Program-made: the position numbers and the translations under genes | Source: Acidobacteriota bacterium | GTDB taxonomy: Bacteria; Acidobacteriota; Terriglobia; Versatilivoradales; Versatilivoraceae | Reading direction: 5' to 3' | DNA length: 42,217 nucleotides | Assembly (NCBI GenBank): GCA_009841055.1 | Contig: VXMN01000227.1 | Coordinates: 1-42,217 of the forward strand | Shown: positions 18,735 to 25,461 of the stretch, in pieces | How the letters are laid out: every line of letters starts with the position of its first letter | How positions within the stretch are numbered: the first letter of the stretch is position 1 | Notes under the pieces: generated by a model | What the model was told of the DNA's origin: nothing | The model's input: the letters and a program-made list of their open reading frames with translations, nothing else | Database searches by the model: none

Positions 18735-18980
18735 AGCCCGCATTTCTCACCAAGGGGCGTGGTCATGGCGCAGTGATATTCCCCTCAGCGCGTGCTCGTG
18801 AGTGAAGAGCGTAGCGGTTTCTACGGTCGAGCGAGCATGTGCGCGCTAAGGGGAAAAGGACAAGCCAGGGCGCGCCCAGCGCCGTGTGTCGTTGCAAGAG
18901 GTCTCAACACGTCCTATAAAGTGCTGAATATAAAAGGTCTTCTTAAAGTACATTCAGCGACCTGGTGAGAAATGCGGGCT
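18735..18980. mobile_element. MITE-like element with 18-bp perfect terminal inverted repeats
   Basis: AGCCCGCATTTCTCACCA (18735-18752) / TGGTGAGAAATGCGGGCT (18963-18980); nested hairpin arms 18779-18798 / 18832-18855. Confidence 0.65.
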
Positions 18981-19145
18981 AACCCGGCAAGCCGGGTTGA
19001 ACAGTCCACCAGCATCCGATATAGATTAGGTGGCAACCCGGAAGCAAGTGGATGCCGGCGCCGTCGAAGGCTACGAGCCACTTCGACCGCCAGCTTGCGT
19101 TTCTCAACGGAATCCGAAAGTCCTCCGCCCAATCGAGCCTCCACC

Positions 19146-20651
19146 GTGGCGCCCATAGATACCGGAATCGTCGTGCTTTACCTGTGCGGGGTGGCTCTGC
19201 TGGGGGTCTACTTCTCCAGGCGGCAAAAGACCACCGAGGATTACTTTCTGGCGGCGCGCAGCGTTCCCGGGTGGGTGGTGGCGTTCTCCATCCTGGGCAC
19301 CATTTGCGGGAGCGCCACCTTCGTGGGACACCCGGGAAACGTCTTCCACGACAACATGTTTCTGATCCCCGCCCACCTGGTGCCGCTGATCGTGATGCTG
19401 CTGCTGGCCCGGCGCATCGTGGTGTTCTACCGCCACAACGTGCGCATGACGGCCTATGAATACCTGCAGCAGCGGTTCGGCTACCCCGCGCGCGCCTACG
19501 GCGCCGCCACCTTTCTGGTCAGCCGTGTGGCCGACGTCAGCGTCACCTACTACTTTCTGGCGCTGGCCACGGCGGTGCTGACCGGATGGGACGTCACCGG
19601 AGTGATCCTCATTCTGGGCGCCATAACCGTGCTCTACACCCTGATCGGCGGCATCCAGGCCGTGGTCTGGACCGACGTGGTTCAGGGCGTCTTCCTGGTG
19701 GGCGGGGGCCTGCTCTGCATCCTGCTCATCCTGTTCGGTTCCGATGCCGGTCCTTCGCAGATTCTTTCTGCCGCCTGGGAGGGGGGCAAGTTCGAGATCG
19801 GCCGCTGGCAATGGGACGCCACCCAAAACAACCAGTGGCTTCTGATTCTTGGCTCGATAGTCGCCTGGCTCCAGTCCTTCTGCTGCAACCAGCACAACGT
19901 GCAGCGCTACCTGCTGGCCCGCTCCGATCGGGAAGCCGTCCGCGGCGCCGTCATGGGAGCGGGGGCCTGCGTGCCGGTGTGGCTGCTGTTCATGCTGCTG
20001 GGAGCCCTCCTCTGGTCCTACTACCAGTTCAGCGCCGAGGTGGTGCCGCCGGAGGTCATGGCGGTCAAGGACCGCATCGTTCCCCACTTCGTCAGCACCC
20101 ACTTTCCGGCCGGTCTCAAGGGCATGGTTCTGGCCGCTCTCATCGCCGCGGCCATGTCCTCGCTGGATTCGGACCTCAATTCTCTCGCGACGGTGGTGGT
20201 CAACGACTTCTTCGGCAAGCTGCGCCCCCGCGCCTCCGAAAGCCTCAGGCTGCTGGCGGGCAGGATCTCCGTCGTCGGCCTGGGCGCCGCCTCCATTCTG
20301 CTGGCGCTGCAGTGGACCCGGATCGACAGCGCCTCCCTGGTCGAGTTCTCCCTCACCATGACCATGATCTTCACCGGAGGCATCCTGGGACTGTTCGCCC
20401 TGGGCATGCTGTTCCGCTGGACGCTGGCCGCGGGAGCCTACCTGGGCATCCTGGCCTGCCTCCTGTTTACCGCCTGGGCAACCCTGACCCAGGTGAGGAT
20501 GCCGGGGAGCGCCGAGCCCATCCTTGATCTGGGGAGCTTCAACTGCACTCTCAGCCTGTGGCTGACCGGGGTGCTGGGCCACCTGGTGCTGGTGTCGGTG
20601 GCCATGGCGGCCAGCCTGATCCTGCGCCGGTCCGAGGGAGGTCGGGGGTAG
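19146..20651 (+). CDS. Sodium:solute symporter (SSS) family transporter
   Basis: KTTEDYFLAARSVPGW, YTLIGGIQAVVWTDVVQG, AAMSSLDSDLNSLATV; likely GTG start at 19146. Confidence 0.93.
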   Translation: MAPIDTGIVVLYLCGVALLGVYFSRRQKTTEDYFLAARSVPGWVVAFSILGTICGSATFVGHPGNVFHDNMFLIPAHLVPLIVMLLLARRIVVFYRHNVRMTAYEYLQQRFGYPARAYGAATFLVSRVADVSVTYYFLALATAVLTGWDVTGVILILGAITVLYTLIGGIQAVVWTDVVQGVFLVGGGLLCILLILFGSDAGPSQILSAAWEGGKFEIGRWQWDATQNNQWLLILGSIVAWLQSFCCNQHNVQRYLLARSDREAVRGAVMGAGACVPVWLLFMLLGALLWSYYQFSAEVVPPEVMAVKDRIVPHFVSTHFPAGLKGMVLAALIAAAMSSLDSDLNSLATVVVNDFFGKLRPRASESLRLLAGRISVVGLGAASILLALQWTRIDSASLVEFSLTMTMIFTGGILGLFALGMLFRWTLAAGAYLGILACLLFTAWATLTQVRMPGSAEPILDLGSFNCTLSLWLTGVLGHLVLVSVAMAASLILRRSEGGRG

Positions 20652-21751: not shown

Positions 21752-21868
21752 TCATGGCTCCTCTTCCCGATCGATGACTCGGATGTTCCGGTTGACCTCG
21801 TTCAGTCGGATCACTCTCTCGGCGAAGATGTCGAGAATCGTCATTTTGTTGGGGTATGTGGGCTTCAT
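21752..21868 (-). CDS. Tiny 38-aa ORF at the end of the HAO-type operon
   Basis: MKPTYPNKMTILDIFAERVIRLNEVNRNIRVIDREEEP; ATGA overlap with upstream ORF. Confidence 0.45.
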   Translation of the reverse strand: MKPTYPNKMTILDIFAERVIRLNEVNRNIRVIDREEEP

Positions 21869-22086
21869 GGTCTTGCCTCTTCCGAGGCCGGCGGCGCGGT
21901 CCTCTCCTGCTGGAGCGTCTCCACGACCCCTGTGATGACTAACAGGATCAGGAAAAACGCGCAGGCAAGGGTCGCTCGCGTGCGGGTACGGAGACCCAGC
22001 TTGGGTTGGGGCTGGATGATGGAAGCAAAGGAGAGGCCCATGCCTGTCAGGCAGATCACGAAGGCCGCAAACAGGATTGTGCTCAT
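21865..22086 (-). CDS. Small membrane protein (2 TM) in the HAO-type operon
   Basis: MSTILFAAFVICLTGMGLSFASI...TLACAFFLILLVITGVVETL. Confidence 0.7.
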   Translation of the reverse strand: MSTILFAAFVICLTGMGLSFASIIQPQPKLGLRTRTRATLACAFFLILLVITGVVETLQQERTAPPASEEARP

Positions 22087-22245
22087 GGGTGCCTCCCACT
22101 CAAGGGTCGGATTGAGTGTCGCTTCGGCAACCCCATCTCTGGTCAATCCCGGTGCCCTTGAGAAACCGGGTGATTCCTGAACGAATGCCGGGGTGGGTCC
22201 GACTGCGGAGCAGCCGTGGCCGCGCGGATGGGTCGACATTCATCG

Positions 22246-22479
22246 TCACTCGCTCCTGGTCACGACCGACCACAGGTAGAGCACCATGCCGCTGCCGACA
22301 AGCAGTGTCCCTGGCCCCAGAAAGAGAAGGAACGAGACCGTATGGTTCCAGAACAGGGTGGGCAGCTCGACAACGATTCCCAGCGCAATGAATGTGGCCG
22401 CCCACCGAAGACCGCCTGTCTGTCGGCCCGAAAGCCTCGATCGGTGACGCGGAATCACGACTACACCTCCGGGTTCCAT
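22246..22479 (-). CDS. Small membrane protein (2 TM) in the HAO-type operon
   Basis: LRWAATFIALGIVVELPTLFWNHTVSFLLFLGPGTLLVGSGMVLYLWSVV; overlaps the end of the NapC-like gene; start codon uncertain. Confidence 0.65.
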   Translation of the reverse strand: MEPGGVVVIPRHRSRLSGRQTGGLRWAATFIALGIVVELPTLFWNHTVSFLLFLGPGTLLVGSGMVLYLWSVVTRSE

Positions 22480-23075
22480 GACCCGAAGCGGTCCAGCTTG
22501 TCTACTTCGTGCACCAGGTTGTGACACATCAGGCACGAGTTGGCGCCTGTCAGCAATTTTTCCTTGAAGGGCGCATGCTCGATCTGCTCCTCGTAGGATC
22601 TTGCCCCCTGGTGGCACTGGAAGCAGGCCCGGTTCGGATAGGGCTCATAGAGTTGGATGGGGGCCGAGGCTGTTCCCCAGAAGTTGTGCCACAGGTGCCT
22701 CACCCCGCGCAGCTTGTCGTCCACGTCTCCAAACATAGTGTAGTCGGTATGGCAGGCGTAGCAGGCCCGGTCGGCGGGAATTCTCTTGTTCTGAAAGTGG
22801 GAGGCGGGAAGAAAGCGGGCATCGTCGACGAAGAGACTGTCACCAAAAGGTTTGATGGCGTGACACGACAGGCAGAACTCGGTCGTCTGGGCCTGCTTGT
22901 AGTGCAGATTGGCTCCCCCCAGCAACAAGAGTCCCGGCAGAACGAAGAGAGCCACAAGCGCCAATACCCGGCCTCCCACCGTGGCCGCCGTTTCCGGCCG
23001 GCGCATCAGAACGGCATTGATGCCGAGGTTTACGGCTGCCAGAAGCACCAGGACTACAGTCAAGCCGGACAACAT
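22461..23075 (-). CDS. NapC/NirT/NrfH-type tetraheme membrane cytochrome c (quinol dehydrogenase)
   Basis: Four CxxCH (CLSCH, CYACH, CFQCH, CLMCH) after N-terminal TM helices; FCLSCHAIKPFGDSL, ACFQCHQGA. Confidence 0.88.
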   Translation of the reverse strand: MLSGLTVVLVLLAAVNLGINAVLMRRPETAATVGGRVLALVALFVLPGLLLLGGANLHYKQAQTTEFCLSCHAIKPFGDSLFVDDARFLPASHFQNKRIPADRACYACHTDYTMFGDVDDKLRGVRHLWHNFWGTASAPIQLYEPYPNRACFQCHQGARSYEEQIEHAPFKEKLLTGANSCLMCHNLVHEVDKLDRFGSWNPEV

Positions 23076-23092
23076 TCGCCTCCCTGAATCGT

Positions 23093-24436
23093 CTAACGGT
23101 TTCTTCCGCGCAGTTCCCGGGCCAACGTCCTGATCTCGGTCAAGTCCTGCACCATCTCGCTCCAACCGTACCAGAGCGCATAATCCGGGTTGTTGTGGAA
23201 CGTTCCCTGAAAGGCTCGCATCCGGTGTTCCAGATGCATTTTGAAGAGCTTCTGCTCGATGACGGTAGGAGCGTCGTGGAAGGCCAGCAGATCCGGATAA
23301 TCGTAGGTGTAGTGGTCGGGCTTGCGCAGCACTCCGTCGCGATAGAGAGCGGCGACAATCCGGATCGCTTCGGCCAGCAATCGGTCCGCCTCCCGGATCA
23401 TCTCATCCCCTTTTTTCAATTCGGCCCGAACGAGATTGGCGGAGTGGCACTGCTCGCAGACCTGGATCATTCGGTCCCGCTCGACTTGCCAATCCTCCTG
23501 AGTGAGCCGGGCGACGTCTGCTTCCTTGACTACCTCCAGGCGCGCCGTCGGATTTCCCTGGGGGTCCAGGACTCCCAGCGCCTTCAGAATCGTGACCTGA
23601 TCGGCCGCCCATTGCTTGTCTTCCGGCAGGGGTAGCCGCACCGCCAGAAAGCCCCAGGCTGTCCGCACTTCGTGATTCCCCTTGGGCATGTGGCAGACCT
23701 GGCAGGTGGGCGCCGCGGCATCTTCCGGAAGAATCCCGCTCTGTTTGAGGGAGTGACGTACGCCGTGCTTCGACGAGGAGTACATCTCCCACTGGGGATG
23801 GTCCATCCCCATGTGACAGGTTCGGCAGGCCTGTGGTTCCCTCGCTTCCTTGACCGAGAAGAGGTGCCGGGTATGACAGGCGTCACAGGAAGCCAGACCG
23901 AACAGAATTCCTTCCTCCTTCAACTGCCGAATCTCGTCCTCGCTCTTGACCCCGATCTGATGGCAACCCCCACATCCCTTCATGCCGCCGGTGAGCGCCA
24001 TGGGCAACCAATGGGTAGTGGGCATGGCCTTCATGCTGGCCCACCCCAAAGCGTGCTTGCCGGCATTGAACTGCTCGGTCTGGATCGGATGGCAGGTCCC
24101 GCAGACCTCCGGCGTCGCCGTCTTGACCAGAGCCACGTCGTCTGCCGATCGGTGCCGGTCGCCGTGGCACAGAGAGCAATCCACACCCTCGGAACTGTGT
24201 CGACTCAACTCCCAGTCGGTGACGATGTTTGGCGTTGCCTCCCTGTGACAATCCACGCACTCGGAGGTGGCTACCGGCGAGTTCTCCCCACCGCCACAGG
24301 CTGTGAGAGCCAGAAGGAGCGGCAACAGGCAGCTGAACCGCCCCGGCCGCCTTGCCCCGGGCCGGGTGCGATTTCGCCACCGTCGCTGCCGGCTGTCGCG
24401 CCCTCTGGGAGCACCTGTTCCGCACATCCGTGTCAT
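23093..24436 (-). CDS. Octaheme cytochrome c, hydroxylamine oxidoreductase (HAO) family, predicted lipoprotein
   Basis: Eight CxxCH (CVDCH, CSLCH, CGTCH, CGGCH, CDACH, CRTCH, CQVCH, CEQCH); CDACHTRHLFSVKEAREPQACRTCHMGMDHPQWEMYSSSKHG; lipobox LLALTAC. Confidence 0.92.
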   Translation of the reverse strand: MTRMCGTGAPRGRDSRQRRWRNRTRPGARRPGRFSCLLPLLLALTACGGGENSPVATSECVDCHREATPNIVTDWELSRHSSEGVDCSLCHGDRHRSADDVALVKTATPEVCGTCHPIQTEQFNAGKHALGWASMKAMPTTHWLPMALTGGMKGCGGCHQIGVKSEDEIRQLKEEGILFGLASCDACHTRHLFSVKEAREPQACRTCHMGMDHPQWEMYSSSKHGVRHSLKQSGILPEDAAAPTCQVCHMPKGNHEVRTAWGFLAVRLPLPEDKQWAADQVTILKALGVLDPQGNPTARLEVVKEADVARLTQEDWQVERDRMIQVCEQCHSANLVRAELKKGDEMIREADRLLAEAIRIVAALYRDGVLRKPDHYTYDYPDLLAFHDAPTVIEQKLFKMHLEHRMRAFQGTFHNNPDYALWYGWSEMVQDLTEIRTLARELRGRNR

Positions 24437-24792
24437 TGTGGACCTCGCGGGTAAGTCCCGTCCCAGCCCGGACTCTCTTAAGGAGTGCCCCCAGGAGGAG
24501 TCGAGTTCTGGCGGCACCGGGGGACGACAACTGGAGCGGGAAAATCCTCACCCCCAGTGAGAGATGCGGGCTCGGTCGGATCATTCCAACCGGAGCGATA
24601 CCTTCACGATTGAGGATAGCCCCGCTCCGGACCGGTCACAATGATGCAAACACTTCATTCATGTGATACGTTTTTATCAATTTACCCGGGTGTACATTGC
24701 TGGTCGATGGAGAAATGGGCCGGGCCGGTAGTCAGTCTGCGACACCCCGTTCGGCGCCATGTTGTTGTTGTGTCTTCGCTCGGAAAAGACCA

Positions 24793-25461
24793 ATGGTTCG
24801 TCGGGAACTGTTTGAGTTGTTGGAAACGGCTGGGGACGCGGCGTTCGCCGTTGATCCACAGGGGTCGATCTGCTACTGGTCGCGGGCCGCGGAGGAACTC
24901 CTCGGCTTTTCGCAGGGGCAGGTCTTGTCGAGAGGTTGCGCCGATATCCTGGCCGGGGTGGATGATGCTGCCTGCGCCGTTTGCACTCACGACTGTCACA
25001 TTCTGGAGATGGCGACAAAGGGAGGGCAGGTCCCCTCTTTCGACCTCCATGCGGCAACGGCCTCCGGCAAGCGCAAGTGGCTGAATGTAACTACCCTCGT
25101 CGCTCACTTGGACCGAGGGGCGTCACCGCTGGTCGTCCATCTGATGCGGGACGTTGATCGCCGGAAACGAGTTGAGGAGGTCACTCAAGAAGCCCTGGTC
25201 GAAATCCGGCGGCTGACTCGCGATCAGGGAGGTCCAGACCCACCGCAGGGCTTATCGCAGTACCCTCCGGTCGATCTCACGCCGCGCGAGCTTTCCGTCC
25301 TGCGACTCCTCTCACTGGGACGAGGCACGGCAGATATCGCGAACCATCTTTACATCAGTCCGGCCACGGTTCGAAACCACATCCAGAGCGTACTCTCGAA
25401 GCTGCGGTGCCATACACGACTTGAGGCCGTCCTTCGGGCGGTTCGGTATCATCTGATCTGA
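24793..25461 (+). CDS. PAS-domain LuxR-family transcriptional regulator
   Basis: PAS (AAFAVDPQGSICYWSRAAEELLGFS) plus C-terminal LuxR HTH (LTPRELSVLRLLSLGRGTADIANHLYISPATVRNHIQSVLSKLRCHTRLEAV). Confidence 0.93.
   Translation: MVRRELFELLETAGDAAFAVDPQGSICYWSRAAEELLGFSQGQVLSRGCADILAGVDDAACAVCTHDCHILEMATKGGQVPSFDLHAATASGKRKWLNVTTLVAHLDRGASPLVVHLMRDVDRRKRVEEVTQEALVEIRRLTRDQGGPDPPQGLSQYPPVDLTPRELSVLRLLSLGRGTADIANHLYISPATVRNHIQSVLSKLRCHTRLEAVLRAVRYHLI

Follow-up and report, generated by a model that had tools for sequence, protein, structure and literature searches.

A predicted lipid-anchored octaheme cytochrome of the HAO superfamily with a tetraheme and a small membrane partner in Acidobacteriota

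Introduction

Loss of the cross-link tyrosine in HAO proteins has been connected with reductive catalysis in three reports (PMC8940962, PMC12758564, PMC3701875), the first two of which also relay catalytic work on the HAOr of Kuenenia stuttgartiensis that ties the absence of this residue to reduction. For epsilon-HAO, PMC8940962 gives as a signature a Trp beside the key Tyr position and a Met eight residues before it. A reverse-HURM coupled to a NapC/NrfH-type protein is on record for Nautilia, and nitrite reduction has been proposed for the epsilon-HAO of Nautilia and Campylobacter (PMC3701875). HAO proteins without the tyrosine occur widely in environmental genomes, and the membrane link of most of them is not known. 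One survey of mtrCAB clusters of Acidobacteriia reported no adjoining inner-membrane quinone oxidoreductase in those it examined (PMC8805035). Here we analyze a locus from an Acidobacteriota genome in which a predicted octaheme lipoprotein of the HAO superfamily is encoded together with a tetraheme cytochrome and a small membrane protein.

Results

The window is a stretch of 42,217 nucleotides, of which positions 21752-24436 carry, all on the minus strand, genes for an octaheme and a tetraheme followed by three small ORFs, s1-s3:

23093..24436, minus strand: HAO-family octaheme c-type cytochrome, predicted lipoprotein, 447 aa, PF13447, predicted catalytic subunit
22461..23075, minus strand: tetraheme NapC/NrfH/CymA-type membrane cytochrome, 204 aa, PF03264, predicted quinol dehydrogenase
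22246..22458, minus strand: s1, 70 aa, two TM segments, kept partner of the tetraheme
21865..22086, minus strand: s2, 73 aa, two predicted TM segments, relatives not found in the loci and genomes surveyed
21752..21868, minus strand: s3, 38 aa, relatives not found in the same survey

This is the gene content that an earlier note had read from the DNA, and the counts of eight and four CxxCH motifs, the two Pfam matches and the three ORFs agree with it. The octaheme and tetraheme genes are 17 nt apart, and the GTG start of s1, served by a good Shine-Dalgarno sequence (GGAGG), lies 2 nt past the tetraheme stop. The tight packing ascribed to the small ORFs holds for this junction and for s2 and s3, where the start of s3 overlaps the stop of s2 as ATGA, but not for s1 and s2, which are separated by 159 nt. 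All three small ORFs are coding-like in their GC3 (0.73-0.76; 0.76 for s2), and each is preceded by a ribosome-binding-site-like sequence, a good one in the case of s2 (GGGAGG) and the poorest at s3. Among window ORFs longer than 50 aa, CxxCH motifs are confined to the octaheme and the tetraheme, both of which also score above the curated Pfam cut-offs and therefore do not owe their motifs to chance. Scans of the operon for promoters, terminators, and Rfam families returned nothing above chance.

A divergent gene for a PAS-LuxR regulator occupies window positions 24697-25461 (plus strand); the Cys-rich segment of its PAS domain, C-A-V-C-T-H-D-C-H, may be a redox or gas sensor. Comparison of the flanks found no homologue of this gene near other copies of the operon, and it was rejected as a conserved regulator. 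On the other side, an SSS-family symporter is encoded at 18972-20651 (plus strand), for which two other genomes have 53% identical relatives in the vicinity of their octaheme operons (L129:297-1811 and L130:11632-13119).

To survey conservation, named genomes were scanned and 396 genomes from the phylum of the window were searched. The window genome itself contains a second copy of octaheme-tetraheme-s1 in unchanged order (contig C122; local alignment gives 81, 69, and 58% identity for octaheme, tetraheme, and s1, respectively), and the order is also kept at nine loci elsewhere (L006-L010, L015, L018-L020), from Acidobacteriota and from MAGs labeled Latescibacterota or 'Gemmatimonadota'; at these 10 loci beyond the window, the gene for the tetraheme directly follows that for the octaheme. 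L009, L010, and L015 are the nearest named relatives of the window genome and place it in Acidobacteriota. Near-identical octahemes and upstream genes are common to L007 ('Gemmatimonadota') and L008 (Latescibacterota), so that one of the two labels is probably wrong, and the claim that the unit crosses phyla rests on Acidobacteriota and Latescibacterota. No homologue of s2 or s3 was detected in the related loci, and their best non-self match in the 396 genomes of the phylum reached 21.6 bits. Because s1 recurs and s2 and s3 do not, s1 is regarded as a real component and the other two as local ORFs. The accessory membrane peptides of the earlier note accordingly reduce to s1: s2 and s3, not conserved beside homologous gene pairs, were discarded in that role. 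The loop of s1 carries the motif E..TLFWNH.vSf, and searches of Pfam and NCBIfam assigned s1 to no family. The conserved unit is octaheme-tetraheme-s1.

The octaheme matches PF13447 with 84.9 bits (cut-off 21.9; 7e-24), and its best PDB matches by sequence are 6h5l, 6t5e, 4n4j, HDH, and HAO. Its structural model retrieved nine Foldseek hits at E<=0.001, all of the HAO family, with the reducing complex 6h5l on top. The AlphaFold models are of low confidence (pLDDT 57 for the octaheme, 44 for the tetraheme); for this reason, the octaheme model served for the Foldseek check only, and the active site was read from neither model. Four CxxCH motifs are present in the tetraheme, which has four-heme character, as well as two N-terminal hydrophobic segments that the low-confidence model renders as helices 4-24 and 27-53. 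It matches PF03264 (NapC/NirT) with 48.7 bits (cut-off 24.1; 9e-13), and a profile search of the PDB found no relative. When scored with the NCBIfam equivalog models of HDH, NrfH, and NapC, both cytochromes fall far under the cut-offs, the tetraheme scoring 34 bits for NrfH (cut-off 134) and 36 for NapC/NirT (cut-off 311), and are therefore distant members of their own families; by its sequence, the tetraheme belongs to a distant subfamily of NapC/NrfH/NirT with two hydrophobic segments rather than one. The PF03264 match and the gene order kept in the further loci uphold the previously suggested pairing of the octaheme with a NapC/NrfH-type quinol dehydrogenase. Identification of the octaheme as ONR, OTR, or NrfA was ruled out by sequence and Foldseek: ONR 8rv0 matched the octaheme profile at E=0.32, ONR and NrfA had Foldseek E>3, and profile similarity to MccA/OTR was at noise level only.

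The octaheme subfamily is widespread, with strong hits in about 50 of the 396 genomes of the phylum, and most of its members have no tetraheme neighbor. Downstream of unlinked octahemes of the subfamily in L028, L030, and L039 lies a conserved membrane protein of ~440 aa that is similar to ResB, a cytochrome c biogenesis protein. In a maximum-likelihood tree, rooted at the midpoint and built with named epsilon-HAO and IhOCC left out, the octahemes that have a tetraheme-s1 partner form a single clade (100/100), and five PDB references (HAO, HOX, HDH, and Kustc0458 fragments), partial and on long branches, form a clade of their own (100/98). Membership of the HAO superfamily, as proposed in the earlier note, is thus borne out by the PF13447 score and the sequence and Foldseek matches, and the expected placement with HAO is not: the tree puts the octaheme outside the clade of characterized HAO/HOX/HDH enzymes, at a branch point that the partial references do not fix.

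Directly ahead of its first haem, the octaheme has a lipobox, LTAC (LLLALTAC). Of the linked octahemes whose N-terminus is intact, 10 of 10 carry a lipobox, against none of 28 unlinked ones; these counts are not independent observations because the linked clade represents one event. Lipidation, as predicted from the lipobox and as supposed in the earlier note, is accordingly tied to the partner genes and appears to be a fixed trait of the linked clade. The residue after the lipobox Cys is Gly, Arg, or Ser and never Asp. In E. coli, a residue other than Asp at this +2 position directs a lipoprotein to the outer membrane; by that rule, which may not be that of this phylum, the octaheme would reside at the outer membrane and be separated from the tetraheme. 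New here is this single-origin clade of octahemes with predicted lipidation and a conserved small membrane partner, s1.

In the profile alignment to the HAO of N. europaea (4fas), D212 and H213 of the octaheme align with D267/H268, His414 aligns with His459, and Leu421 occupies the column of the cross-link residue Tyr467. In an alignment of 63 sequences that includes 38 octahemes of the subfamily, the Asp-His pair is invariant (38/38), and the Tyr467 column holds Leu, Ile, Trp, or Asn and not once Tyr (0/38). Tyrosines do occur nearby, at positions 419 and 423, but moving the one gap of the alignment brings neither of them onto Tyr467. The identification as an oxidative HAO was ruled out by this column together with the tree. 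Trp422 is present in the octaheme, and eight residues earlier stands His414, not the Met of epsilon-HAO. The Met/Trp signature is mostly present in another HAO-like group of the phylum (L047-L060). The octaheme belongs to the HAO superfamily and, by the features tested, is neither an oxidative HAO nor an epsilon-HAO; the absent tyrosine supports the reductive direction suggested in the earlier note.

The phylum was also searched with the tetraheme and s1 alignments, each alone. In the phylum sample, the tetraheme has 15 close relatives (E<1e-60), and all 15 have s1 beside them; the six relatives that are more distant gave no s1 match. Ten further genomes have tetraheme-s1 pairs without an adjoining octaheme, and at most such loci with enough flank the pair adjoins a decaheme and a barrel-sized ORF of 600-760 aa, usually with a monohaem cytochrome as well. 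Clusters of decaheme, barrel-sized ORF, monohaem cytochrome, NapC-type tetraheme, and s1 are seen in L110-L119. In L110, the decaheme belongs to the DmsE family (TIGR03508, 259 bits) and the barrel to MtrB/PioB (PF11854, 328 bits). L116 again has a decaheme of the DmsE family (249 bits), but the large ORF that accompanies it matches no family. In the tree, tetrahemes linked to octahemes and those linked to conduits form sister clades (100/100), and when s1 proteins of both kinds are aligned, a loose core, G..(v)E..(S/T)L..(n/s)HP.aF, is kept. Because relatives of the tetraheme-s1 pair adjoin an MtrA/MtrB-like conduit, the pair is not specific to HAO, and its kinship with pairs beside outer-membrane conduits is likewise new. 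Tetraheme-s1 looks like a portable quinol-dehydrogenase cassette that a lipidated octaheme acquired on one occasion. In the simplest history, a conduit-type cassette would have been transferred a single time to the gene of an octaheme, which gained a lipobox as well, in a direction that we infer.

The window genome is 93.8% complete, and absences from it are therefore provisional. Its NapC/NirT-type proteins are the two module copies only. No nitrate reductase (Nap/Nar), no HCP (hydroxylamine reductase), and no convincing NrfA were found at this completeness: the sole PF00384 (molybdopterin) hit is a formate dehydrogenase-like protein, and PF02335 retrieved 8-haem proteins of a different kind. 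The formate dehydrogenase-like gene (L069, contig C143) adjoins a NuoE/F-like sequence and contains an in-frame TGA, possibly a selenocysteine codon. A single haem-copper oxidase, of the aa3 type, is encoded. On contig C188 of the same genome (L128), a DmsE-family decaheme is encoded for which the genome contains no separate NapC-type partner. The ORF after it is barrel-like, lacks a family match, and is cut off by the contig end. These data suggest an aerobic heterotroph with two module copies and without a visible nitrite supply of its own. Elsewhere in the phylum, an epsilon-HAO-type octaheme directly adjoins a molybdopterin enzyme (L131 and L132:3938-8000, minus strand), which in L132 is NapA (953 bits) and is followed by a 4-haem cytochrome; these two loci suggest that nitrate-to-nitrite-to-HAO clusters exist in the phylum.

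Discussion

Since known Tyr-less HAOs are reductive, the best reading of the locus is a quinol-linked reductase of nitrogen oxides: it is probably a membrane-bound reductase of the reductive HAO type and most likely works like a module of the reverse-HURM or NrfHA type. The tetraheme, with s1 as its small membrane partner, would draw electrons from the quinol pool and pass them, presumably within a physical complex, to the octaheme subunit; the latter would be kept at a membrane by its lipid anchor, and its active-site haem, with an Asp-His pair and no Tyr cross-link, may reduce a small nitrogen oxide or hydroxylamine. Against this reading, the lack of nitrate reductase, HCP, and NrfA in the genome leaves no nitrite-supplying or ammonifying pathway visible; the position outside the characterized clade, His414 in place of the epsilon-HAO Met, and the +2 residues of the lipobox also count against it. 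For the nitrogen substrate supposed in the earlier note, the genome offers none of these enzymes to frame a DNRA pathway. Because of their absence and of the position of the octaheme outside the characterized clade, the substrate is one that we infer, likely exogenous nitrite, NO, or hydroxylamine.

A module running forward, as a hydroxylamine dehydrogenase (HURM) that carries electrons from hydroxylamine to quinone, would share the HAO fold, the Asp-His pair, and a cM552/NapC-type partner with nitrifier HURM, and the alignment of His414 with His459 of HAO is in its favor; we consider it quite improbable, however, as Tyr467, the mark of oxidative HAOs, is missing in every member and the octaheme lies outside the HAO/HOX/HDH clade. 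It is also unlikely that the octaheme is not a nitrogen enzyme but a periplasmic relay that hands electrons from tetraheme-s1 to an outer-membrane conduit for extracellular electron transfer. The DmsE-family decahemes and MtrB/PioB barrels beside close tetraheme-s1 relatives point that way, as do the decaheme and barrel-like ORF of a genome with no other NapC-type protein and +2 residues compatible with an outer-membrane location, whereas the octaheme has retained its active-site Asp-His, the decaheme is on a different contig, and octahemes of other clades lack any tetraheme partner.

The absence of nitrogen-cycle neighbors and of a nitrate reductase would suit a reductase of another small substrate (sulfite, tetrathionate, or another oxyanion) or a sink that detoxifies NO or hydroxylamine without energy conservation, and the wider multihaem superfamily does take in sulfur enzymes. 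The similarity to MccA/OTR profiles is not beyond noise, however, and the strong structural and sequence matches are all nitrogen enzymes or HAO-fold relatives; we give this alternative little credence. A bolder interpretation is tentative and on balance doubtful: a cassette of a two-TM tetraheme and an obligate s1 may have been swapped between a DmsE/MtrAB-type conduit and an HAO-family enzyme, which would make the lipidated octaheme a terminal reductase of a new, membrane-tethered class, or an outer-membrane bridge, distinct from epsilon-HAO and NrfHA, and s1 an undescribed subunit of NapC/CymA-type enzymes.

For one clade of Tyr-less HAO proteins, the question of the membrane link is answered by a conserved, compact unit, whose predicted lipid anchor, quinol dehydrogenase, and small membrane protein appear to have been acquired jointly in a single event. 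Should s1 prove to be a genuine subunit of NapC/CymA-type enzymes, it would be a missing piece both of nitrogen-oxide reductases and of the extracellular electron transfer conduits of Acidobacteriota, where it matters because of the mtrCAB survey cited above (PMC8805035).

Among known systems, the reducing HAO-like complex Kustc0457/0458 of Kuenenia stuttgartiensis (6h5l) is the best PDB match by sequence profile and Foldseek; it shares the HAO fold and a cross-link position without Tyr, with Trp in place, and differs in falling into a separate clade on long branches. We know of no lipid anchor or NapC/NrfH-s1 partner in that complex. Epsilon-HAO/reverse-HURM (HaoA with the NapC/NrfH-type CycB; Nautilia, Campylobacter; PMC3701875) likewise combines a Tyr-less octaheme with a quinol-linked tetraheme, but its Met(-8)/Trp signature is absent from the window clade (His414), which is predicted to be lipidated and has a tetraheme with two TM segments and, in s1, an additional partner, and Nap and HCP were not found in the window genome. 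In NrfHA, too, an NrfH-like tetraheme membrane anchor passes quinol electrons to a multihaem reductase, whereas the catalytic subunit in the window is a PF13447 protein and not NrfA, to which it has no significant match by sequence or Foldseek. The literature examined held no description of s1 alongside CymA. The CymA/NapC-type quinol dehydrogenase of MtrAB/DmsEF conduits has its counterpart in the sister tetraheme-s1 clade beside DmsE-family decahemes and MtrB/PioB-type barrels, from which the window differs in that the downstream partner is an HAO-family octaheme.
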